Below are positions 7,347 to 38,573 of a stretch of 39,760 bases of DNA, one piece after another. This DNA is from Nitrospira sp. bin75. Lineage in GTDB: Bacteria > Nitrospirota > Nitrospiria > Nitrospirales > UBA8639. The position numbers were made by a program, and so were the translations under genes. How positions within the stretch are numbered: the first letter of the stretch is position 1; each line of letters begins with the position of its first letter. The DNA is taken from NCBI GenBank assembly GCA_002238765.1, contig MPMZ01000025.1, positions 1 through 39,760 of the forward strand. Direction: 5' to 3'. Below the pieces are notes generated by a model. That model had not been told where the DNA came from. It was given only the letters and a program-made list of their open reading frames with translations, and ran no database searches.

Positions 7347-8339
7347 ATGACTCGATTCGACGTTCTCGCGGAACAGGTGCTGCAAGGACATTCGGTCACC
7401 CGTGAAGAAGGCTTGGAACTGCTTCAAACCGACGACGCCCAACTCTTACCCCTTGTCAATGCCGCGTATACGATCCGCCACGCCTGTTTCGGTCGAAAAG
7501 TCACCATCCAGATGTTGTTCAACGCCAAGAGCGGCGCGTGTCAGGAAGATTGTCATTATTGTTCGCAGTCCAGTATCTCCACGGCCCAGATCGACCGCTA
7601 TGCGCTGGTATCCCCCGAGGACATGCTCAAGGCCGCCCGCCGGGCCCATGAGGCCAAAGCGGAGCGGTATTGCGTGGTCATCAGCGGACGCAGTCCCCTA
7701 GAAAAAGAAGTGGACGACATCGCCTCGGCGGTGACGCGGATCAAACGGGAACTCCCGATGCAGGTCTGCTGTTCCCTGGGACTTCTTACCGAACCTCAGG
7801 CCAAACGACTCAAGGCCGCCGGGGTCGATCGCATCAACCACAACCTGAACACGAGTGAAGCCTATCACTCCTCCATCTGCACGACCCACACGTATCAGGA
7901 CCGGATGACCACCTTACGAAACGCGCGCGCCGCGGGACTGGAATTGTGTTCGGGCGGGATCGTCGGCATGGGCGAATCCGACGAGGATCTCGTGGACCTG
8001 GCCCTCGCCCTGCGGGACCTCAATCCCGACTCGATCCCGTTGAACATGCTGCATCCGATTCCGGGGACTCCATTGGCCGACGCCAACCACCTGACCCCGC
8101 AACGGTGCCTGAAAATCCTCTGCCTGTTCCGCTTTGTCCATCCTCGCAGGGAACTGCGCGCGGCGGGAGGACGGGAGTTCAATCTCCGGTCCCTGCAACC
8201 CATGGCCCTATACGTGGCGGACTCGCTGTTCGTCAACGGCTATCTGACGACACCCGGACAACCCGGCCACGAGGTCGAACGGATGCTCTCAGACATGGGC
8301 TTCGAAGTTGCGGGGGAGCCATCACCCTGTCAGGGGTAA
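7347..8339 (+). CDS. bioB: Biotin synthase
   Basis: A 330-residue radical SAM enzyme that inserts sulfur into dethiobiotin. The 4Fe-4S cluster motif is CQEDCHYC near residue 63, preceded by VTIQMLFNAKSGAC. Later motifs YCVVISGR, INHNLNTSE and CSGGIVGMGE are typical of BioB. The start ATG follows GAGGGAGTAAGCGA. It is the last gene of the rightward housekeeping cluster, and no other biotin gene is visible in the window. Confidence 0.95.
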   Translation: MTRFDVLAEQVLQGHSVTREEGLELLQTDDAQLLPLVNAAYTIRHACFGRKVTIQMLFNAKSGACQEDCHYCSQSSISTAQIDRYALVSPEDMLKAARRAHEAKAERYCVVISGRSPLEKEVDDIASAVTRIKRELPMQVCCSLGLLTEPQAKRLKAAGVDRINHNLNTSEAYHSSICTTHTYQDRMTTLRNARAAGLELCSGGIVGMGESDEDLVDLALALRDLNPDSIPLNMLHPIPGTPLADANHLTPQRCLKILCLFRFVHPRRELRAAGGREFNLRSLQPMALYVADSLFVNGYLTTPGQPGHEVERMLSDMGFEVAGEPSPCQG

Positions 8340-8363: not shown

Positions 8364-8540
8364 TCAACGCCCTCTTTTCTTGCTCTTTGCCCGTTCCCTG
8401 TCTCGTTTTTTAATGTCCTCAAAATCCAGTCTCTTTGTCGGGCCGCCGTTAAAACCCGCCTGAATGTCTTTGCGAAACTGCTCCATTCGCAGTTCACGAA
8501 GATGTTCTTGCTCACCCCACAAATGATTTGATTCATCCAT
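8364..8540 (-). CDS. ParD-like antitoxin C-terminal fragment (58 aa)
   Basis: A short reading frame from ATG at 8540 to TGA at 8364. Its EHLRELRMEQFRKDIQAG, GPTKRLDFEDIKKRDRER pattern matches the C-terminal, toxin-binding half of ParD-type antitoxins (an acidic or amphipathic helix, then PLD.E.IK.RARER). The N-terminal ribbon-helix-helix DNA-binding half is missing, and a stop codon lies three codons upstream in frame. It begins 17 nt after the res stop codon with an AAAAGGG at some distance before the ATG, so it is the last gene of the restriction operon. No ParE-like toxin is present in the gap to bioB. It could be a remnant left when the island inserted, or a genuine minimal protein. Confidence 0.5.
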   Translation of the reverse strand: MDESNHLWGEQEHLRELRMEQFRKDIQAGFNGGPTKRLDFEDIKKRDRERAKSKKRGR

Positions 8541-8557: not shown

Positions 8558-11500
8558 TCATTGACTCCCGGAAACACTCTTAAGGATCTTCGGAACTTCC
8601 GACACCTTCTTGGCAATGGCATATTCCCATTGCCCAAACGTTCCATCCGCATTGACCGCGCTTACCCATCGTTCGGCAGCGGCACGCTTGACCTCTTCCA
8701 ATGGATCATAGCCTTTTGTTTCAAGGATCAGGTGGCATGGCGGGTCGGATTTCAGACGAACGATAAAATCAGGGACATAGTCGTGCATTTGCCCGTTGTG
8801 GAGATAAGGGACGGCAAACCCCAGACCGGCGTTTTTCACAAAAGCCTCAACCGACTCGTTCTTATCCAGGAAATAGGCTGCGGACTGTTCCCATTGTTTG
8901 GTATCGGCAACCATGTAATTCAGGTGGCTTTTCACAACTTCCCGGACTTCACGGCTGGTCCAGAAATCCACGTCGGCCGTCGAGCCAACCCCGCGCGTGG
9001 TTTCGTAGCGAGGCACTTCCGGGGCTTCACCTTGCGAAGCATCAGGACGGATAGCCTCCAATAAACGCTCGACAACCAAATTGTAGTACGGCAAGAGAAA
9101 AATGTCCTTTTTGTCCGAGGGCGGTGGAGCCATGACCTTGTTATTGAGGTAGCGGTGAACAATAATGGCTAACTGGGGAAAGAGCTTATGGGCGGGAACG
9201 AAGCATTGATTCTGAGCAACGTAATCCCGCGTTAGCGTTTGGGCAAGGTCAAACACCAATTCCTGAATTCTGCGTTTGGCACGAAACTCCGTGAGTGTGA
9301 CGTCATCAATTCGACCCGGCCCGCTCAGTGAAAGTCTTCCTTGATTGTTGACGTGCAAACCCTTCACCTCAACTTCCGGAGGGATACGGTCCGGGTCCAA
9401 GACTTGAGGAGTAATCTTCTCCCAGTCCACGGTCAAGCGATTGCGAATGGCCTGCGTATACCCTTCAACGCGAGGGAAGGTGATTTCATAACACGATTTC
9501 GCAGGAAGGGCATGAACGTGATAGCGCTTGACCCGTGGTGGAGGTTGGCCCTTCGGAGAAGCTTTGAACGGAATAACCTCGAAAGGAACACCAAATACTG
9601 TGGCCGTTTCCTCAGTCAGCAACCCATCCGGGCCGACTTCGTAATCTGTCCGGCGCAATCCGCGTCCAACGACCTGCTCACACAGGAGTTGAGACATAAA
9701 AGGACGCAGGCCGATGATGTGCGTCACCGTGTTGCAGTCCCAACCTTCGGTCAACATACCCACGCTGACAATACACCGAACGTCACGACCGGGTGGATGA
9801 TCCGGTCTCTCAAGCTTATCTGCCAGTTCTTTGAAACCATCGGGGTAAAGAGGACGGCCCATTTGATCGGTCGGCCACGCGGTCTTCCCCACCGTATCAA
9901 GGGTAAAGCGCATCCAGCGCACTTCGTTACTCTTGGCCTCGCCGGAGTCCGATTCATGCACAACTTTGGAATCCACGCGGATCGTGTTTTGGGGACCGTG
10001 CAATTCCTGTAAGCCCAGCGTATCGACGCCTAAGGTGAAGCTGCCGAGGATGCCGCCGACCGATTGTGTTTTGTTTTTAAATCCCTCAATCTTTACCGGA
10101 GGAATTCCCGTTGGCGCATGATCCTCTGCCAACCATTCATAGAGCACCTTGGCAATCTGCGTGTTTTTGCATACGAGAATAAAAACAGGATGGCGCGTAT
10201 CTTCTTGATTTTGGCTCCATTCCTCTCGTTCTTTTTCCCAGAGCCCCCCGAGCATGGCGATGGGGTGATGGGCATATTTCAGGATAGCTTCCGGCTTTGG
10301 ATTGGCCTTCTTGCCGCCACGCTCGGCAGCGGTCAGTTGCGGTAAGATCCAGTGCCAAATATTGAAGTAACCGGGAATTTCTTTGCCGGTCGTATCCCGA
10401 ACGGCCAGTTGCGGAATCTTCACCAGTCCGGATTCGATGGCATCAATCAGACCAAAGTCGCTGACGACCCAGGGAAACGGCCGATTCGTATCCTGTCCGA
10501 CTTTTCCGAGAAAATAAGGCGTTGCCGAAAGATCCAGACAGAAATTGATTCCCCGAAGTTTCTGGATACGATCCAAGCCTTCTATCCAAACCGTGGCTTC
10601 CTTAAAAAAATCCTCGGCATCCTCTTCCTCGCCGAAAAGGTCCTCCTCATCCTCGTCTTTATTCTCACGCACGATGCGATAGGCGTGATGCGCCTCATCA
10701 TTCATGATGAGGATGTTCTGTTTTCCTCCGACTTCCCGACCCAGAAGACGGTTAAGAAGAGCCGTATCGCTTTCAACGTAGCGTCTCGATTCAACTGTGA
10801 CCTTTTGTAGAATTCCACCTTTGTCGCTTTCTTTATCCAGTACGGAAAGCATGCCAGCGGCGACTTGGCGTTCAAAATCCTTCAAGGTCAGGTAGCGGCG
10901 GCCACGGGCCGTTGTAGTTTGGGAACCGATGGTAATTGTCTCTTTGGTGCGGACCTCGACCCCGGCTTTCGTTACCCTAGCTCCCACGCCACCCGTTTGG
11001 ATGGCCTGCGGCTCGAACACGTGCCAATTTCTCACCAAAACCCGACCCTGCATTAGTTGCGGCATCAAATGTGACGGAACGAGATCGCGGGTGCGATACA
11101 GACTGGCCTCACCTCCATCAGGATCGAGTTCCCGGAGCCGGTTGCGGATCGTTACATTCGGACAGACGACCAACACGACGTCCGAAAATCGTTTATCCTG
11201 ACGGTCGTTAACTTTATTGAGAATGCTCCAGGCTGCAAGCATTCCCATGACGGTGGTCTTCCCGGAGCCTGTTGCCATCTTGCAGGCATAGCGACAGAAT
11301 CCCGTAAAACCCTGAGCCTTTTTCTCATCACTGACTTCCTCCCGAGGAACGTTGATGCCCTGCAAAAAATCATCCCGGGCCTCGGTGAGAAAAATAATCG
11401 TTTCAGCCGCATCGAGTTGGGCAAAGAAGAGTCGCTGGCCTCTTCCCTCACGTTGCCACCATTGCAGCAACTCCTGAGTGGTCCTGGTGACACAGGGATA

Positions 11501-11743
11501 CCCCTCCAACCGCCATTTCTTTACGTGCTCTCGAATGCGGTTGACCAGCTTCAGTTCGATAGCGGTGGCAGCCACAGGCCCATATTCTTTCTCGGGCTTA
11601 GCCTTGGGATCACGATAAAAGTACGTGGCCGGGCGGCGACCCGGTTTTCGCGAAGGTGTTTCACCTTCAACAATATGCCAATGTTCCTTGGGTTCTCCGA
11701 AAGGAGGATTGAGAATAGGCTGAGGAACTTCGTACGCACTCAT
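8558..11743 (-). CDS. res: Type III-like restriction enzyme Res subunit (helicase-nuclease)
   Basis: A 1061-residue SF2 helicase with a C-terminal nuclease. Motif I ATGSGKTT is at 157-164, a DEAH box (MNDEAHHAYR) at 349-352 and motif III LSATPYF near 405. The second RecA domain has LTEGWDCNTVTHIIGLRPF and VVGRGLRR. At the C-terminus PDF (Asp about 992) and ETKG (1008-1011) form a PD-(D/E)xK site. An acidic segment near 362-380 is unusual. In type III enzymes this subunit translocates or switches on ATP and cuts unmodified DNA. Its ATG overlaps the stop of the ATPase gene by 4 nt, and the methyltransferase lies two genes upstream. Confidence 0.9.
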   Translation of the reverse strand: MSAYEVPQPILNPPFGEPKEHWHIVEGETPSRKPGRRPATYFYRDPKAKPEKEYGPVAATAIELKLVNRIREHVKKWRLEGYPCVTRTTQELLQWWQREGRGQRLFFAQLDAAETIIFLTEARDDFLQGINVPREEVSDEKKAQGFTGFCRYACKMATGSGKTTVMGMLAAWSILNKVNDRQDKRFSDVVLVVCPNVTIRNRLRELDPDGGEASLYRTRDLVPSHLMPQLMQGRVLVRNWHVFEPQAIQTGGVGARVTKAGVEVRTKETITIGSQTTTARGRRYLTLKDFERQVAAGMLSVLDKESDKGGILQKVTVESRRYVESDTALLNRLLGREVGGKQNILIMNDEAHHAYRIVRENKDEDEEDLFGEEEDAEDFFKEATVWIEGLDRIQKLRGINFCLDLSATPYFLGKVGQDTNRPFPWVVSDFGLIDAIESGLVKIPQLAVRDTTGKEIPGYFNIWHWILPQLTAAERGGKKANPKPEAILKYAHHPIAMLGGLWEKEREEWSQNQEDTRHPVFILVCKNTQIAKVLYEWLAEDHAPTGIPPVKIEGFKNKTQSVGGILGSFTLGVDTLGLQELHGPQNTIRVDSKVVHESDSGEAKSNEVRWMRFTLDTVGKTAWPTDQMGRPLYPDGFKELADKLERPDHPPGRDVRCIVSVGMLTEGWDCNTVTHIIGLRPFMSQLLCEQVVGRGLRRTDYEVGPDGLLTEETATVFGVPFEVIPFKASPKGQPPPRVKRYHVHALPAKSCYEITFPRVEGYTQAIRNRLTVDWEKITPQVLDPDRIPPEVEVKGLHVNNQGRLSLSGPGRIDDVTLTEFRAKRRIQELVFDLAQTLTRDYVAQNQCFVPAHKLFPQLAIIVHRYLNNKVMAPPPSDKKDIFLLPYYNLVVERLLEAIRPDASQGEAPEVPRYETTRGVGSTADVDFWTSREVREVVKSHLNYMVADTKQWEQSAAYFLDKNESVEAFVKNAGLGFAVPYLHNGQMHDYVPDFIVRLKSDPPCHLILETKGYDPLEEVKRAAAERWVSAVNADGTFGQWEYAIAKKVSEVPKILKSVSGSQ

Positions 11744-13398
11744 AGACGAAAGGCCTGCTGAATGGCGTCAAGTTTTTCTTTGACTTCGGGATGTATTTCT
11801 TCCGGCAGCATCGCGGCAGCGATTTCATTGAAGCGTGTATAGGGAAAGCCATGCAACCCGGCCGCATCGAGAATCGGCGGAATGACTTCTGTCCTGGCTT
11901 TACGTTGTTGGAGATACGCATCGACCAAAGGATAGGGCTTTAGGGGACCTTGAAGAAAGGCAGGGGTAAATGTCTCCTCAAGATAGGCCAACATATCTTT
12001 CCTGGCTTCCGCAGAAAAATCGCCGGCACCTATCTCTTTCTCAATAAACCGCTCCAGTGCTTTCGGGTGGACGAGATAGCTTTCGATTTCGTAGCGATTC
12101 CAGCGAAGACGTTGCAATCCGGTCCCCGTCACGTCCGTACTAGGAATCCTCGAAATGTCATCGCCATCAAGGAGGACCAAACCCGGCAAATCCGCACGGA
12201 TGAGTTTCAGGGCATCATAATGATCTTCAGCCTTGATCCCTGATGCCCCCGGTCTCGGCTCCCAGACGGATGGTTTCCAAAATAATCGCGTCGTCAGTGT
12301 TTCACACGCTGGATGATTCAAAATCTTGGCCCATTCAACGAGGATATTGATATCCGTATACCCATCGACATACAAAATGCCTGGAGCATCATGGGCCAGG
12401 AGAATATCCGTATTGGATAACACCCCAAGGGAAGCAGCAAGTCTCTTTCGATCAACAACAGAGTCCAAAAGTTTTGGTTCATTGAGAAGTACACAGAGTT
12501 CACGAGGCTCGACGGAGTTGATAATCACCTCCGAATGCGTGGAGATAATGAGTTGCGAGTTTTGTTGAGCGGCGACGGAGCGCAACTCTCCATAGATCGC
12601 GTCTTGAAGGATCACGTGCAGATGCGCATCCGGTTCGTCCAATAGGAGGATCGAACCAGGCCTGATGTGTAGAAAGGTTAAAAGCATGAGAACTTGTTGA
12701 AAGCCGCTTCCGGCACTCGCAATGTCAAGCCGTGGTCCGTCGAGATGGTCCTGGTATTCGGCAATGATATCAGCCCCTGTCGCATCGGGAGGTAAAATTT
12801 CATAATGAAAAAGCCGTGCAATTGAATCACGGAGGGAATCCCAAGCTGAACTCTGATGGGCCTCGACCAGCAAATTGCGGATCACGTCGCCTGGTTTTCC
12901 CTGACCCAACAATTGTTCGACTTTCGGTCGTTGATACACGGGTTCGCCGGTACTGAGCCCCGTCATGGGCGGAACAAACGCCGTATTGAGTGCAACCTGC
13001 CTGACCGTATTCGGTTCGACGTCGGGTTTGGGACGCACGTAGACCTGCTCCGTACTATCGGCTATCCATTCCATGGTTAAGCTCCACCCTTTAGAGTGGC
13101 GAACCGCAATCTCTACGGAGCCGGAATATTTGCGATCATTCCAAAGAAGATCGAAGGCACGAAGAGGAACCGCCGTGAAAGCTTGTCTGGCAACAGGCAC
13201 TTTTGCGTAAAACCCTCTATGACGTTGAAAATCGTGTCGCTGCTTCCAGTAGGTGAGCGCCAGATCCCAAGCAGTAATGGCCTGTAACATTGTCGTCTTT
13301 CCACAATTATTCGGGCCGGCGATAACGACGTGTCCGGGAAGTGTGAAGGTTACATCGGCAAAACGCTTGAAGCGCCGAATGGTGACTCGTTCGATCAC
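11740..13398 (-). CDS. OLD-like ATPase with TOPRIM-like domain, between mod and res
   Basis: A 552-residue protein. The ABC-type ATPase half has Walker A GPNNCGKTT at 28-36, a signature-like ASAGSGFQQVLML near 227, Walker B ILLLDEPDAHLH at 250-261 and the H-loop STHSE at 286-290. A TOPRIM-like segment follows with LYVDGYTDINIL near 342 and LLDGDD at 409-414, the arrangement of OLD-family nucleases. The position usually held by the catalytic Glu (VEG) is Asp (VDG). Both ends overlap neighbours by 4 nt (ATGA): mod upstream and res downstream. It is therefore an integral part of the operon. It may act as a sensor, a second nuclease or an assembly factor; the sequence does not say which. Confidence 0.8.
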   Translation of the reverse strand: MIERVTIRRFKRFADVTFTLPGHVVIAGPNNCGKTTMLQAITAWDLALTYWKQRHDFQRHRGFYAKVPVARQAFTAVPLRAFDLLWNDRKYSGSVEIAVRHSKGWSLTMEWIADSTEQVYVRPKPDVEPNTVRQVALNTAFVPPMTGLSTGEPVYQRPKVEQLLGQGKPGDVIRNLLVEAHQSSAWDSLRDSIARLFHYEILPPDATGADIIAEYQDHLDGPRLDIASAGSGFQQVLMLLTFLHIRPGSILLLDEPDAHLHVILQDAIYGELRSVAAQQNSQLIISTHSEVIINSVEPRELCVLLNEPKLLDSVVDRKRLAASLGVLSNTDILLAHDAPGILYVDGYTDINILVEWAKILNHPACETLTTRLFWKPSVWEPRPGASGIKAEDHYDALKLIRADLPGLVLLDGDDISRIPSTDVTGTGLQRLRWNRYEIESYLVHPKALERFIEKEIGAGDFSAEARKDMLAYLEETFTPAFLQGPLKPYPLVDAYLQQRKARTEVIPPILDAAGLHGFPYTRFNEIAAAMLPEEIHPEVKEKLDAIQQAFRL

Positions 13399-16256
13399 CT
13401 CCCAGCCCCATTCAGTTTTTTTACGACCAGCAACTCGTTCCCACGATCGTCTATGACTTTCACGGCAATCTGCTTGTGCTCACCAGCTAGGAATGGCGCA
13501 CTCGTCGCGCCTGCAAGATGATCCCAAACATTTTCTTCATATTCGCCTTTCAAAGCCTTTTTGAGATTGTTCCAGGCGCCGGTGCGTGGGAAGAACGCCT
13601 GCGAAACGTGAAAACACAGGTCGTTATAGTCGATGTCCAGAAACCAAGCTGGTACGTCATTCCCGGAACGGTGGACCACTTCCATGCTGATGGGATCAAA
13701 CACATCCAACCCGAGTAACTCCACTTGATAATAAACTCCCTCTCCCCTTGTGGGAGAGGGCTGGGGTGAGGGGGTTTTGATCTTTCGCACTTCAATTTCC
13801 GGCTGGCCGCAGACGCTGAAGATCTGGCTGGAACGCATATTCTTGAGCAGATCTCCCATCATCAAATCGGGAGTGGCCTGCACGTAGGTAGCGGGCACGC
13901 CCACCACCTCGGTACATTTTTCCACCAACGTTCGAGCATTGGGTTGAATGGCAAAACCGATGACATAGAGATGTGTGTAGCTTTTGACGTGGGCTTCACG
14001 TGCAGCTTCATACACCAGTTTTTCACTGACCGCCCCGTTTTCGGGTCCGAACACCAACGCCACCAGCTTCCCGGATAACGGGAGATGGCGGCCGCTTTTC
14101 TCTTCCGCCTCATCGATCGCTTCTGACAAAGAGGGGCTTTGCCCGTGCGCGGTGGCATCAACAAGGGCTTCAGCGGAAAGGGATAGAGTCTTTGCCGGCG
14201 GGCGGACATTCTTGAAAGTGACAGTCTTGTTGCCCTCCAATCTTAGGATAGGGCTCTTGCGCAACACTTCCAACATCCGATCCACGAAGGAGCCGTAGCC
14301 ATCTCCCTCATCATTGACGGGTGAGGGTGAATCTTCCAAATCCACCGGAGTGGGAATTGTGGCCTCGAAGCAGAATGGACCCGTTACACGGGTGATGCCA
14401 CTTTGTTGCTCCGGGCGGTCCACAAGGACTTCTTCCCGTGGAGACTCATTGTTTGTTATTGAACCAAGCGTAACATGGGGAACAATGCCTCCAACCTCTT
14501 CACCCTTTTTGTTCTGCTTTCGTTTGTAAACGAAGCCTCCGGCTGGGCCACGTTGTTCGTCTTCAAGTTCGTACCAGGGAAAAGTCCCTGTCAACAGACG
14601 TTGCCGAGCTAGTGCCAACGGCACCCGGCTGGTATCAATCGTGATCCAACGCCGGCCCGACTGTTCTGCCACATAGGCGGTCGTGCCACTGCCACATGTG
14701 GGGTCGAGAATAAGATCACCTGGATCAGTGGTCATAAGGAGGCAGCGTTGAATTGCCGTAGCAACTGTCTGAACAACATAGTGTTTTCCTGTGGCACCTA
14801 ATGTGTCAGTCCAAACATTTGCAAGTTCCATGACGGGAAAATCTTCATGGTATAGAACATAGCGTAGAGCCTTAGCTGTCGCATGCAGTCTGTTTGCACT
14901 AATCAAACGATTCATGCCTTCTAGGTTAGTTTTCCAACTTTTCCCCGTCGTTGGAGTATAGACTTTACCCTTGTATTCAAATGGGAACACACACGTTTCA
15001 GTTCTACCAGAAGATGATAGATCAAGACTCGTAAACACTCTCGCGTCCTCCGGCAATGTTTCTGGAGCAGTCTTTTCTTCCGTAGTCATTGAACGACGCT
15101 CGCCAGTAGATAACTCTACCATATTGAACTGTGAATCAATTCCAACATCCTTGGGCACGAAAAGTCTCCGAAATTTTGTCAATGTTATTTCTCGTGAATA
15201 CCAGAGTATGTAGTCGCAAACGCCAGCGATGTAGGTAGTTCCAAGCGGTATCTTGGTTTGAAATGAAATGAGCCCGACAAAGTTTTCTGCTCCAAACACC
15301 TCATCCAGCACTTCCCGGACATGGTGCAGATTTTCGTCGCTGATCTGAACGAAGAGGCTGCCGCTGGGCGTGAGCAGGTCGCGAGCCAACAACAACCGGT
15401 CACGCAAATATGTCAGGTAGGAATGCAGGCCCAGTTCCCATGTGTCCCGATACGCTTGGACCATTTCAGGCTCGCGGGTCATGTCTTCATCATCGTTGTG
15501 GGTGACGTCCCGTTTCTTAACAAACGGCTGGAAGTTGGACCCGAACTTCACGCCGTAGGGCGGGTCCATATAGATCATCTGCACCTGCCCGCCGAGCCCT
15601 TCATAGTGCAACAGCGAGTTCATGACCACGAGCGAATCGCCGAGGACCATCCGGTTCACCCATTGGTCGGGGTATTCATACGCTTTCAACACCTGATCGG
15701 TGATGGAATGCCGGGGATCACCAAACAAGTCATACATGTCCATTTGCTTGTCGGTCTTGTGCCCTACCAGCGTTTCAATGATGGCTTTTGTAGAGAGCCG
15801 CTCGTGAATGAACAGCGGCAAGGTGGGCACGTCAAAAGACAGACGTTCCGCTTTGCCTGCCCAGTTCAGGAAAGGTTTGCTCAGGGCTTTAAGCTCGCGC
15901 AACGTTCCTTCGGCTTGACGAAGGGCCTTGGCAACTTCACCCTTATCTGCGCCCTCACCCTGCCCTCTCCCAGAGGGAGAGGGTAAAGAGGCGGTTCGCA
16001 ATTCTTCTATGTGCCGCTCAAGCTGTGCGATCAGCGCTTCGCCTTGCTCGCGGGCAGGATTCTTGGCATCCCAATCAAGCGCCGGCGACAATGACGAATC
16101 GTACCGGTAGGTTTTCGGTGGTTTCTTCTTCTTGAACTGGGCTTGGGTCCCGACTTCCGGCCGCATGAGGCTCGTCGCCTCCGCGTGCCTGTACGGTTCC
16201 GCCTTTTTAGATTTGGCCTTTACGACTTTCGTCTTTCTACTCTTTGGTACAGCCAT
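13395..16256 (-). CDS. mod: Type III-like DNA (adenine-N6) methyltransferase Mod with repeat insertions
   Basis: A 953-residue beta-class amino-methyltransferase. The catalytic DPPY (MIYMDPPYG) is near residue 232 and the SAM-binding LDPTCGSGTT near 517, the motif IV-before-I order of type III Mod subunits. The region between them should hold the target-recognition domain and is lower in GC than the flanks. About 350 residues follow motif I, longer than a typical Mod, and contain LYVIGFAIQPNARTL and VPATYVQATPDLM of unknown role. The basic N-terminus is followed by a 13-residue repeat-derived insert near 93-105, and another is near 830. It is the first gene of the operon and overlaps the ATPase gene by 4 nt. 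Confidence 0.88.
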   Translation of the reverse strand: MAVPKSRKTKVVKAKSKKAEPYRHAEATSLMRPEVGTQAQFKKKKPPKTYRYDSSLSPALDWDAKNPAREQGEALIAQLERHIEELRTASLPSPSGRGQGEGADKGEVAKALRQAEGTLRELKALSKPFLNWAGKAERLSFDVPTLPLFIHERLSTKAIIETLVGHKTDKQMDMYDLFGDPRHSITDQVLKAYEYPDQWVNRMVLGDSLVVMNSLLHYEGLGGQVQMIYMDPPYGVKFGSNFQPFVKKRDVTHNDDEDMTREPEMVQAYRDTWELGLHSYLTYLRDRLLLARDLLTPSGSLFVQISDENLHHVREVLDEVFGAENFVGLISFQTKIPLGTTYIAGVCDYILWYSREITLTKFRRLFVPKDVGIDSQFNMVELSTGERRSMTTEEKTAPETLPEDARVFTSLDLSSSGRTETCVFPFEYKGKVYTPTTGKSWKTNLEGMNRLISANRLHATAKALRYVLYHEDFPVMELANVWTDTLGATGKHYVVQTVATAIQRCLLMTTDPGDLILDPTCGSGTTAYVAEQSGRRWITIDTSRVPLALARQRLLTGTFPWYELEDEQRGPAGGFVYKRKQNKKGEEVGGIVPHVTLGSITNNESPREEVLVDRPEQQSGITRVTGPFCFEATIPTPVDLEDSPSPVNDEGDGYGSFVDRMLEVLRKSPILRLEGNKTVTFKNVRPPAKTLSLSAEALVDATAHGQSPSLSEAIDEAEEKSGRHLPLSGKLVALVFGPENGAVSEKLVYEAAREAHVKSYTHLYVIGFAIQPNARTLVEKCTEVVGVPATYVQATPDLMMGDLLKNMRSSQIFSVCGQPEIEVRKIKTPSPQPSPTRGEGVYYQVELLGLDVFDPISMEVVHRSGNDVPAWFLDIDYNDLCFHVSQAFFPRTGAWNNLKKALKGEYEENVWDHLAGATSAPFLAGEHKQIAVKVIDDRGNELLVVKKLNGAGR
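13738..13772. repeat. Dispersed palindromic repeat inside mod (C-terminal copy)
   Basis: CCCTCTCCC and GGGAGAGGG form a 9-bp stem, followed by CTGGGGTGAGGG. On the coding strand it reads in frame as TPSPQPSPTRGEG, a low-complexity peptide with no counterpart in the methyltransferase fold. This is the same element type as at 15952-15983 but in the opposite orientation. Confidence 0.75.
15952..15983. repeat. Dispersed palindromic repeat inside mod (N-terminal copy)
   Basis: CCCTCACCCTG is followed by CCCTCTCCC and GGGAGAGGG, a stem-loop of the same type as 13738-13772 but inverted. It is translated in frame as LPSPSGRGQGEG within the N-terminal region of Mod. Both copies keep the reading frame open. 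Confidence 0.75.
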
Positions 16257-16381
16257 AACGCATTGACATCCCTTGATTCCTGAAGGTTGGAGTCAATCAC
16301 AATACTCTTCAAAGGAAGCTATGCTATCCAACCTCTATAAAAAAGTACAGCTAAAGGAAGGAGTGCCCTTAGATTCTCTCG

Positions 16382-18934
16382 TCACTCGTACCGTAACCCG
16401 TCGGCGATGGTGCCGCCGGTGGCCCAGCGAGCCGGAAGATACCCGGCGAGCAGCCCCGTGATTCCCGTGACGAGCACGGCTTCCAGGATGGTCTTGAAGG
16501 GAACGGCCATGTGGATGGTCCAGCCGAAGGACTGTTTGTTGATCACGCTGATCAGCAGGGTGGCCAGCAGGAGCCCGGCCAGCAACCCGAGCACCAACCC
16601 CAGCGTTCCCAGGCAGAGCGATTCGCGCACCACCAATCCCTGCACTTGCCGGCGACTGCCGCCGATCGCGCGAAACGTGGCAAACTCCCGTTGGCGTTCG
16701 ACCACGGTCGTCAGGAGCGTATTGATAATCCCCAGCAGACCGACGATCACCGTGACGATTTCCAACCCGTAGGTCAACCGGAAGGTCCGGTCGAAAATTT
16801 CAAGAATGTGCGCCCTGAGTTCCTTATTGCTGATGATCGATACCGGCAGGAGCGGGCCGAGGGCTTTTTTCAGATCGCTCCGCACGCGTTGAGCACCGGC
16901 GGCAGGATCGAGGTACACCGCCAATACCGTTGCCGTGTGATCACCCCACCATTGTTCATAGAGCGACCGGTCCAGCACGATCTTTCCTCCGTCCGTGGCA
17001 TAATCATAAAAGACGCCGGCCACGGGAAAGTCCTTCTGCCCGGCGCCGGTCGGCAACGACAACACGTCACCCGCGTTCACCCCGAGCCGGTGGGCCAACA
17101 CTTCCGACACCACCACACCCTGTTCTCGAATGGCTTGGCGAAGACGGCGGGACGAGTCGCCGTCCACGAACAGGTATCGACTCCGTTCCGCGTGAAGGGC
17201 AAGATCGCGTGCCGCGACGTAGGCCTGGGTGGAGCCCACTTGTATGCGGACCTGACGGTAGGGATCGACGGCGGCCACGCCCGGCACCGCCCCGGCGCGT
17301 TGGACCGTTTCCGGTGAAAAACGAAAGACGTTCTCATGCGGGCCGGCATCCAATCCGTCCTCATGGGGCGTCACCACCAGGTCCGCCATGAGGGTCTGGT
17401 CGATCCATCGCTCAACGGTATCCCGGAAACTCTCGATCATTACGCCGACGCCCACGACGATCGCAATGCCGACCATAAAAGCCGACAGGGTGACGCTGTT
17501 TCGACCCGAAGATCTGGCAATCTGATCCACGGCCAGGCGGGTCATGGAACCCGACGATGGTTTGAAGAAGGTCATCAGGCCCAACAAATGAATGCCCAGC
17601 GGAGAGAGCAGGGTGCATCCCAGCAGGACGCAAAACGCCGCAGCATATCCGAATACGGGAAGGCCGTTCACCGGACCGGGCAAGGCAAGCAACCCGGCCA
17701 AACCCAAGACCCCCACGGCCAGGACGGTCCACCGGCCATGATGCGGACGCGTGGTTTCATATTGCCCGGGCGCGATGGCCAACGCCGGGGTGGTCCGGCT
17801 CGCCTCCAGGCACGGGCCCAACGCCCCGATCACGGACAGCGCCATGCCCAATAAGCATCCTCCCAACAGCACGGGCAGGGTCAAGGGCAGTTCTCCCATT
17901 GTCGCGATGCCATAGAGTTCGGAAACCGTTTGCCGTTCGAGCCCGACGAGCCAATGCGCCAACCCAATGCCGAACACGGATCCCAGTCCTCCGCCGACGG
18001 TGCCTGCGATGATCGCCTCCCCCAGAAACAACAGGGCAACGTGCCCCCGAACCATGCCGATCGCCCGCAGGATGCCGATCTCCCGTCGATATTGGACCAC
18101 GGAAAATCCCACGGCGTTGTAGACCAGGAACGTGCCGACGAAGAGCCCGACCATACTGAGGGTGGTGAGGTTCAACTGAAAGGAGGTGAGCATCCGTTGC
18201 ACCTGCGCATCGCGCTGAGATGGACGATCGACCAGAACGGACGGGCCCAGACGCGCCTGCAATTCCTGAATCACGCGATCCACGGGTATGCCGGGGGACG
18301 TCACCAGATCCACCCCGTCGAGTTGGCCAAACCGTTTCAATTGCACCTGCGCGGCGGCAATATCCATGATAGCCATGGAATCCCAGCGTTGTTCATCATC
18401 GGAAAACGTCAACACCCGGCTCACGGTCGCCTCGAATTGATGCGGCCCGGCGTGAACCGTCACGGGATCGCCTCGGACCACGCCCAAGCCGGCCGCCAAC
18501 TCGTGATCCACGAAGATCGCGTCCCGGCTGAGCAGGGGATCCAGCGAGAATTCTTCCTGACCGGACGATTGCCGCACACCCGTCTCCTCACTGAGGACGT
18601 CCAACAGGTCCAGTCCCCACACCATACTGGTGCGGGTATTCCCGTGAGGCGTTTCGAGTGTGACGGATTGTGCAATATACGGGTGGACCGCTTGGACGTC
18701 CGGATGCAGGCGAATCCGTTTGATGAGGGTTTCATCGATTCGACGTTCAGCCCCTGAGAGGTGAATCGTGGCCTCTCCTACGACCTTGGTGACTGCTCGC
18801 TGAAACGATGCAAAGACGGTTTGATTCGCCAGGTAGATGGCAAGAGCGGCCGCCACCCCAACGCTGACCCCGGCCACGGTGAGCGTGGTTCTGAAAGGCC
18901 GGCTCGTCAAGTGTTTGAAAGCCAGCATCGCCAT
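16382..18934 (-). CDS. FtsX/MacB-type ABC transporter permease, two FtsX domains
   Basis: A membrane protein of about 850 residues with a first TM segment (FRTTLTVAGVSVGVAAALAIYL), a large periplasmic region, three TM helices around 270-400 and a second TM bundle. A second periplasmic domain and a final FtsX domain (three TM helices at the C-terminus) follow. The FtsX signatures YRREIGILRAIG and QREFATFRAIGG occur once in each half. This duplicated layout is found in permeases for lipoproteins or other envelope lipids, paired with LolD-like ATPases. A LolD-like ATPase lies at 21217-21930, separated by three genes. I prefer the start at 18934 (MAMLAFKHL); ATG 18928 or 18976 are alternatives, and none has a strong ribosome-binding site. 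Confidence 0.85.
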   Translation of the reverse strand: MAMLAFKHLTSRPFRTTLTVAGVSVGVAAALAIYLANQTVFASFQRAVTKVVGEATIHLSGAERRIDETLIKRIRLHPDVQAVHPYIAQSVTLETPHGNTRTSMVWGLDLLDVLSEETGVRQSSGQEEFSLDPLLSRDAIFVDHELAAGLGVVRGDPVTVHAGPHQFEATVSRVLTFSDDEQRWDSMAIMDIAAAQVQLKRFGQLDGVDLVTSPGIPVDRVIQELQARLGPSVLVDRPSQRDAQVQRMLTSFQLNLTTLSMVGLFVGTFLVYNAVGFSVVQYRREIGILRAIGMVRGHVALLFLGEAIIAGTVGGGLGSVFGIGLAHWLVGLERQTVSELYGIATMGELPLTLPVLLGGCLLGMALSVIGALGPCLEASRTTPALAIAPGQYETTRPHHGRWTVLAVGVLGLAGLLALPGPVNGLPVFGYAAAFCVLLGCTLLSPLGIHLLGLMTFFKPSSGSMTRLAVDQIARSSGRNSVTLSAFMVGIAIVVGVGVMIESFRDTVERWIDQTLMADLVVTPHEDGLDAGPHENVFRFSPETVQRAGAVPGVAAVDPYRQVRIQVGSTQAYVAARDLALHAERSRYLFVDGDSSRRLRQAIREQGVVVSEVLAHRLGVNAGDVLSLPTGAGQKDFPVAGVFYDYATDGGKIVLDRSLYEQWWGDHTATVLAVYLDPAAGAQRVRSDLKKALGPLLPVSIISNKELRAHILEIFDRTFRLTYGLEIVTVIVGLLGIINTLLTTVVERQREFATFRAIGGSRRQVQGLVVRESLCLGTLGLVLGLLAGLLLATLLISVINKQSFGWTIHMAVPFKTILEAVLVTGITGLLAGYLPARWATGGTIADGLRYE

Positions 18935-19037
18935 CAAGAATATTCGTTCCAAAAAGTGTTGCCTTCCAACATCCACTATGGTAATTTACGAGAATTTCAA
19001 TCGACGAATGCAGAGCTGAAACACGCGGGAGTTTCTT

Positions 19038-38120: not shown

Positions 38121-38573
38121 GGTATGGGGTGGGTCGATAAGCCGGATTCTGTTCCGTATCGATTCTGCATACGGCGGTGACCATGTCTCTACGGCTTCTG
38201 TTACCACAAGCCTCCAGCGACCTACCCGAGAACCTCGGCCGGGCCGGCCTCTCCCGAACGTCATCGACTCCTCTCCGCAAACGGCTGTCGCCGTGCGAAG
38301 CCGATCGGGCCGTTCGGAGCGTCCTCCTATTTGGTCTTGCTCCGGGTGATGCTTACCCTGCCGTCCACGTTGCCGCGGACGCGGTGGGCTCTTACCCCGC
38401 CGTTTCACCCTTACCCCGGCACCATCCGAAGATCGTCCCGGGGCGGTTTGTTTTCTGTGGCGCTCATGTCGGATTGCTCCGCCTGGGCGTTACCCAGCAC
38501 CCTGCCCTGTGGAGTCCGGACTTTCCTCCCACCTGCGACCAGGTGAGCGGCCACCTGACCCACGCCTCATACC
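38121..38573 (-). ncRNA. rnpB: RNase P RNA (bacterial type A)
   Basis: The catalytic RNA of RNase P, which trims tRNA 5' ends. The 5' half has GAGGAAAGTCCGGACTCC and CACAGGGCAG, and the 3' end ACAGAATCCGGCTTATCGACC, both hallmarks of bacterial RNase P RNA. The 5' GGTATG...GTGGGTC pairs with 3' GACCCAC...CATACC to form helix P1, which sets the limits at 38573 and 38121. TTTTT follows P1 directly, so P1 may double as terminator. The length is about 453 nt. Confidence 0.95.

Follow-up and report, generated by a model that had tools for sequence, protein, structure and literature searches.

A type III-like restriction-modification operon found in the window, that is, the whole stretch of 39,760 nucleotides of Nitrospira sp. 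bin75 DNA that was analysed, carries a fused ABC-ATPase and TOPRIM gene between mod and res, and comparison with related loci indicates that this gene is more plausibly a guest occupying a variable slot than a core subunit. On balance, we regard the operon, with moderate confidence, as a mobile type III-like locus whose mod-res junction is exchangeable and whose ATPase-TOPRIM guest would act as a latent backup effector. The junction is a slot with a turnover of cargo, the guest is under purifying selection, and its fold and its remote kinship to AriB and OLD proteins are those described below.

The operon consists of three co-directional genes on the minus strand, mod (13395..16256, 953 aa), the guest gene (11740..13398, 552 aa, with a GTG start), and res (8558..11743, 1061 aa), each junction being a 4-nt overlap. 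The preliminary description, in placing an OLD/TOPRIM-like ATPase between a type III-like mod and res, was borne out by the open reading frames and by the domain matches. It had reported ATGA at both junctions, which is correct for the ATPase stop and res start (11740..11743, minus strand), but the mod stop and ATPase start overlap (13395..13398, minus strand) reads GTGA; both are 4 nt long. A search for the mod-ATPase-res order in other genomes, as had been suggested, revealed that it is conserved in nine loci, all of which (9/9; L161 judged by coordinates) kept the 4-nt mod/ATPase overlap. Because this overlap recurs in nine loci, a frameshift or a sequencing or assembly artefact at the overlaps is very unlikely and was rejected. 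Comparison with the nearest relative, locus L062 from the same genus, indicated that all three genes are under purifying selection (dN/dS: ATPase, 0.105; mod, 0.16; res, 0.127).

The operon is flanked on the res side by bioB (7347-8339, plus strand) and on the mod side by an ftsX-like permease gene (16382-18976, minus strand), which is followed by a terminator-like stem (16351..16372, minus strand). The operon probably has its own promoter within positions 16257-16350, where a consensus match was found that does not rise above those of shuffled sequences. A charged 58-aa open reading frame (8364..8540, minus strand) located 17 nt after res had no family match in profile searches. Its counterpart in L062 is 65 aa long and overlaps res by 4 nt, and L232 retains a remnant at the corresponding chromosomal site. 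This open reading frame may be a fourth gene of the operon.

In Mod, the DPPY motif IV precedes the DPTCGSGT motif I, which is the order of beta-class N6-adenine methyltransferases. The protein matched the PADLOC MTase_III profile (8.7e-148), Pfam N6_N4_Mtase (1.8e-24), and the solved type III Mod structures 6k0w and 4zcf, and is thus predicted to be a beta-class, type III-like methyltransferase. Res, which combines an SF2 helicase with a C-terminal PD-(D/E)XK nuclease, matched model NF046055 (BPTD_3080 restriction endonuclease) over residues 7-1056 with 1039.7 bits, exceeding the curated threshold (800 bits), and ResIII with an E value of 2.2e-6. Its helicase and nuclease motifs are intact (MATGSGKT, DEAH, DLSATP, QVVGRGLRR, and PDFIV...ETK). 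The score against PRK15483, the model for classical type III endonucleases, was 17.8 bits, below the cut-off of 564. The predicted Mod-Res system is labeled type III-like because Mod is type III-like and Res belongs to BPTD_3080 and falls far below the classical type III model. It thus resembles type III systems of the EcoP15I kind in the fold and motifs of Mod and in the presence of a helicase-nuclease Res, but differs from them in that Res belongs to a separate family. The mod gene also contains two in-frame palindromic CCCTCTCCC...GGGAGAGGG repeat elements (15933-15995 and 13719-13775) encoding SLPSPSGRGQGEG and SPQPSPTRGEG. These repeats are common to L062 and absent from several other Mod proteins; L060 has one similar element. 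The genome from which the window comes contains a second BPTD_3080 Res (G000:C50:2-1687, 723 bits), truncated by the contig end.

The middle protein starts with an ABC-ATPase head (residues 1-326; 12421..13398, minus strand) in which Walker A (GPNNCGKTT), the signature (SAGSGFQQ), Walker B (LLLDEPD), and the H-switch (STHS) are all intact. Matches to Pfam AAA_21/AAA_15 had E values of about 1e-18, and the AAA_15/AAA_21 scores of 68.2 and 68.7 bits exceed the PARIS thresholds of 32/27 bits (PMC9122126). An ABC transporter was also considered and rejected, there being no permease partner and a TOPRIM domain fused to the ATPase. An AlphaFold2 model computed from 27 homologues (pLDDT 89, pTM 0.79) replaced an earlier, useless model from only 5 sequences (pLDDT 43). 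With this predicted model, Foldseek retrieved OLD nuclease 6p74 as the best match (E 1e-12), followed by PtuA and GajA. The VIA-align comparison covered residues 1-326 (PtuA, Z 21.5; AriA 8v46, Z 18.8) and hardly probed the C-terminal part. Low amino acid identities in structural matches were not counted alone as evidence of kinship.

The TOPRIM domain (residues 327-552; 11740..12420, minus strand) contains a DxD motif at positions 411/413 and glutamates E437/E439. When C-terminal domains alone were searched, the PADLOC AriAB profile matched 7 of the 13 family members (best, 2.8e-5) and the AriB profile matched 5 of 13 (best, 4.7e-5); the C-terminal domain of the window protein itself had no significant match to either. 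The AriAB profile spans both domains in L094, which is a slot member, and in L098, L100, and L136, the match in the window protein being confined to the ATPase. Pfam DUF4435, for which the PARIS criterion is ≥27 bits, was detected neither in the window protein at E ≤ 1 nor in its C-terminal domain, and was found weakly in 2 of the 13 relatives; the sampled genomes supplied too few DUF4435 homologues to make a profile comparison worthwhile. Pfam OLD-like_TOPRIM (PF20469) was absent among the matches of the window protein at E ≤ 1. Alignment of the guest and OLD TOPRIM profiles by hhalign gave an E value of 6.4e-5 and a probability of 64%; in it, the invariant OLD glutamate falls opposite guest residue 345, and the DxD motif opposite residues 411/413. 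A search of solved structures with the TOPRIM profile alone retrieved nothing, and DUF4276 could not be convincingly aligned with the guest TOPRIM. Together, the OLD fold match, the AriB/AriAB matches in relatives, and the hhalign match to OLD TOPRIM domains identify the middle protein as a predicted OLD/PARIS-like fused ATPase-TOPRIM protein with remote kinship to AriB and OLD.

The content of the mod-res junction was surveyed in a phylum sample of 296 genomes, 40 of which have Res above the cut-off, and in further loci from Gammaproteobacteria and plasmids. Among 45 loci with the mod-to-res order, some of which are cut by contig ends and which were partly chosen for the ATPase, the junction is empty in 11, contains the ATPase-TOPRIM gene alone in 9 or with other genes in 2, and contains other cargo or is disturbed in 23. 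When only the phylum sample is considered, which has about 25 mod-res loci, 4 carry the ATPase and 6 have an empty junction. Other cargo, designated by Pfam names, includes HEPN+MNT, DUF2281+PIN, DUF4160+DUF2442, AAA_21+DUF4276, AAA_14/DUF4143, BRO-N, BrnT+PIN (BrnTA), a CAP12-type TIR protein, and a module of multi-ubiquitin, E2, ThiF-JAB, and DUF6527 proteins. In a second Res subgroup with the res-mod order, the junction holds Fic, YhcG, HicAB, BRO, or DUF4062 proteins. Toxin-like families dominate this cargo, which varies across Nitrospira-type genomes, Gammaproteobacteria, and plasmids. Since the junction of related mod-res loci is empty or filled with unrelated cargo, the ATPase is not an obligate third subunit.

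Elsewhere, members of the ATPase family lie by themselves or within other defence loci. No relative of the ATPase was found in viral contigs, and the matches from plasmids were remote, none covering 80% of the query. In L157 (5815-8765, minus strand), multi-ubiquitin, prokaryotic E2, ThiF/JAB, and DUF6527 genes lie directly upstream of the BPTD_3080 res gene with a 4-nt overlap, and a similar multi-ubiquitin module adjoins an ATPase-TOPRIM gene in L096 and L097. In L095 (6472-14193), cargo is stacked upstream of Res, comprising ATPase-TOPRIM, an ATPase with a DUF4276-like protein, and SLFN AlbA_2 with HATPase. An ATPase-TOPRIM homologue occurs in a different methylation-type defence locus in L164 (147-9655), where it is flanked by an AAA/PIN pair and by large methyltransferase-like and DUF499-like genes, as named by eye from the sequence.

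Exchange of the cargo was observed directly. In loci L160 and L161 from two genomes, both on short contigs, the res DNA is 99.4% identical over 3101 nt and the mod tail 100% identical over 55 nt, whereas the DNA between mod and res encodes AAA_21+DUF4276 in the former and ATPase-TOPRIM in the latter, the boundary of the cargo falling cleanly between mod and res. The same replacement was seen on longer contigs in L068 and L094 (Res, 90%; Mod, 78.5%). The ATPases of L093 and L094 are only 43% alike, compared to 88% for Res and 79% for Mod. In a tree of the Res subfamily of the window (27 rows; a quick tree in which some forks are weak), the cargo switches class at least 12 times, and the ATPase is gained or lost at least 7 times. 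The ATPase tree places eight slot members in a single supported group and L094 with L095/L156, indicating that the slot was entered more than once or that exchange occurred after entry.

The chromosomal site was also variable within the genus. The bioB and ftsX-like genes are adjacent with nothing between them in L220, L222, L223, and L224, and are separated by fragments of res or of the 58-aa open reading frame in L231, L232, and L234. In L230 (G341), decayed mod and res genes at this site flank DUF1828/1829 and DUF6978 genes instead of the ATPase. Thus, the locus is gained and lost at this one site, where its cargo differs as well. The decayed mod/res remnants in L230, L231, and L234 are a record of repeated loss.

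The preliminary description held that the three proteins probably form one machine. In such an obligate three-subunit enzyme, the ATPase would work in restriction, by DNA looping, proofreading, or as an extra nuclease, and the overlaps would set the stoichiometry. The conservation of the order and of the 4-nt mod/ATPase overlap in nine loci is in favor of this proposal, as is a co-occurrence that had been put forward as a check and did exceed chance: BPTD_3080 Res was found in 6/10 genomes with the ATPase versus 18/321 (P 2e-6), and in 5/10 versus 40/296 in another comparison (P 0.005). However, most of this co-occurrence is produced by the slot itself. The empty junction in 11/45 mod-res loci, the unrelated proteins in most of the others, Res proteins that are 99% identical with or without the ATPase, and ATPase family members occurring without mod-res make the claim of one machine unlikely. 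The junction could also be a tolerated landing site at which toxin-like modules stabilize the locus as hitch-hiking addiction cargo, with no functional link to restriction. The presence of classic toxin-antitoxin pairs (DUF2281/PIN, HicAB, BrnTA, and HEPN/MNT), the GC content of the operon (51.5-54%, versus mostly 55-62% in surrounding genes), and the empty or decayed sites in congeners are consistent with this explanation, which we view as a tentative possibility, since the placement between mod and res is precise, involves start/stop overlaps, and recurs in separate Res subfamilies, and since no dedicated antitoxin gene accompanies the ATPase cargo.

A further question concerns the window copy alone. 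Codon 345 (12364..12366, minus strand) is GAT, specifying Asp at the position of the TOPRIM glutamate, a residue that is Glu in 30/30 aligned homologues, and its TOPRIM nuclease may be impaired or weakened for this reason. If E345D abolished TOPRIM cleavage, the copy would be catalytically dead or regulatory and only the ATPase sensor would matter. This is unlikely in view of the gene-wide dN/dS, of the intact ATPase motifs and DxD, and of the conservative nature of the substitution, which is one base from the codon of the relative.

The slot suggests a place for a fallback weapon, probably acting by cell shutdown. If the guest is a backup effector, Mod and Res alone would carry out restriction and modification, and the ATPase head would sense failed or inhibited restriction, in the form of a phage anti-restriction protein or of a disturbed Mod-Res-DNA complex. 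The head would then free the TOPRIM nuclease, which would bring about shutdown of the infected cell by cleaving either tRNA, like AriB, or DNA, like OLD and GajA. The action of the guest would probably be abortive and be triggered once restriction is overcome by phages, as in the case of PrrC and PARIS. We infer the latency of the guest, its trigger, its substrate, and any physical contact with Mod-Res; by analogy with PrrC and EcoprrI, a physical association with Mod-Res is possible. The toxin-dominated cargo agrees with published schemes of backup effectors and suicide coupling (PMC12839542, PMC3506569). Against this, some cargoes are ordinary toxin-antitoxin pairs that bring their own antitoxin and can do without control by restriction-modification. 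The ability of PARIS to work without a restriction-modification system in the cell (PMC9122126) counts against the simplest version of a backup. The trigger cannot simply be Ocr-type inhibition, since type III enzymes reportedly escape inhibition by the anti-restriction functions of phages T7/T3 (PMC12707154). A broader and rather doubtful proposal is that Mod-Res is the common controller of unrelated effectors in one slot, the complex or its loss gating ATPase-TOPRIM, ATPase+DUF4276, HEPN, PIN, Fic, and ubiquitin-like modules; if so, a restriction-modification system would serve as a universal antitoxin or guard interface.

Several known systems resemble the guest or its host. PARIS couples an ABC ATPase that senses anti-restriction proteins to the TOPRIM nuclease AriB, in which E26 is required (PMC9122126, PMC12409363). 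The guest resembles AriA/AriB, including their single-gene fusions, in the combination of an ABC ATPase with a TOPRIM nuclease, in the C-terminal profile matches of several relatives, and in the logic of a counter to anti-restriction, but it sits inside a mod-res operon, lacks detectable DUF4435 in the window protein, and is only weakly similar to AriB. Immunity-suicide coupling with repeated toxin displacement in restriction-modification loci was proposed by Makarova et al. in 2012 (PMC3506569), and PrrC in EcoprrI is the tested case of such coupling (PMC3874165, PMC12707154). As is proposed for the guest, PrrC is an ABC-ATPase effector with a guard logic encoded within a restriction-modification operon. 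Unlike the guest, it carries another nuclease and belongs to a type I locus (hsdMSR), the present slot having a TOPRIM domain, a type III-like mod-res host, and many alternative cargoes. A 2026 survey (PMC12839542) describes OLD-ABC+TOPRIM, HEPN-MNT, PIN, and Schlafen modules that serve BREX and related loci as backup effectors. The cargo repertoire in these methylation-based defence loci, including Schlafen/AlbA, is the same, but here the host, a BPTD_3080 mod-res locus, has just two genes and one defined slot, for which there is direct evidence of cassette swaps. Class 1 OLD nucleases (TsOLD, P2 Old) likewise carry ATPase and TOPRIM domains in one chain and provided the best Foldseek match, but they are encoded by single genes, and the kinship of the guest TOPRIM, which is not matched by the Pfam OLD-like_TOPRIM model, is remote. 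Gabija differs in that the neighbors of the guest are mod and an SF2 res, with no adjacent UvrD-like GajB helicase.

Every ingredient was already known, and the slot, by analogy, fits the backup-effector scheme in a new host. In the open-access papers that were searched, we found nothing on BPTD_3080 and no description of accessory genes of mod-res loci or of a variable slot between mod and res of the BPTD_3080 kind, a subject that may be covered in part by the ABC ATPase classification of 2020 (NAR, gkaa726). The loci offer a natural experiment on the old question of whether restriction-modification loci control the toxin-like genes lodged inside them. Because near-identical Mod-Res hosts carry different guests, one guest could be replaced by another in laboratory constructs that use the natural junctions. 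Inspection of the junction between BPTD_3080 mod and res is, in addition, a simple rule for finding candidate effectors. Elsewhere in the window, an RNase P RNA (RF00010, 284.8 bits; 38122-38566, minus strand) adjoins tRNA-Glu.
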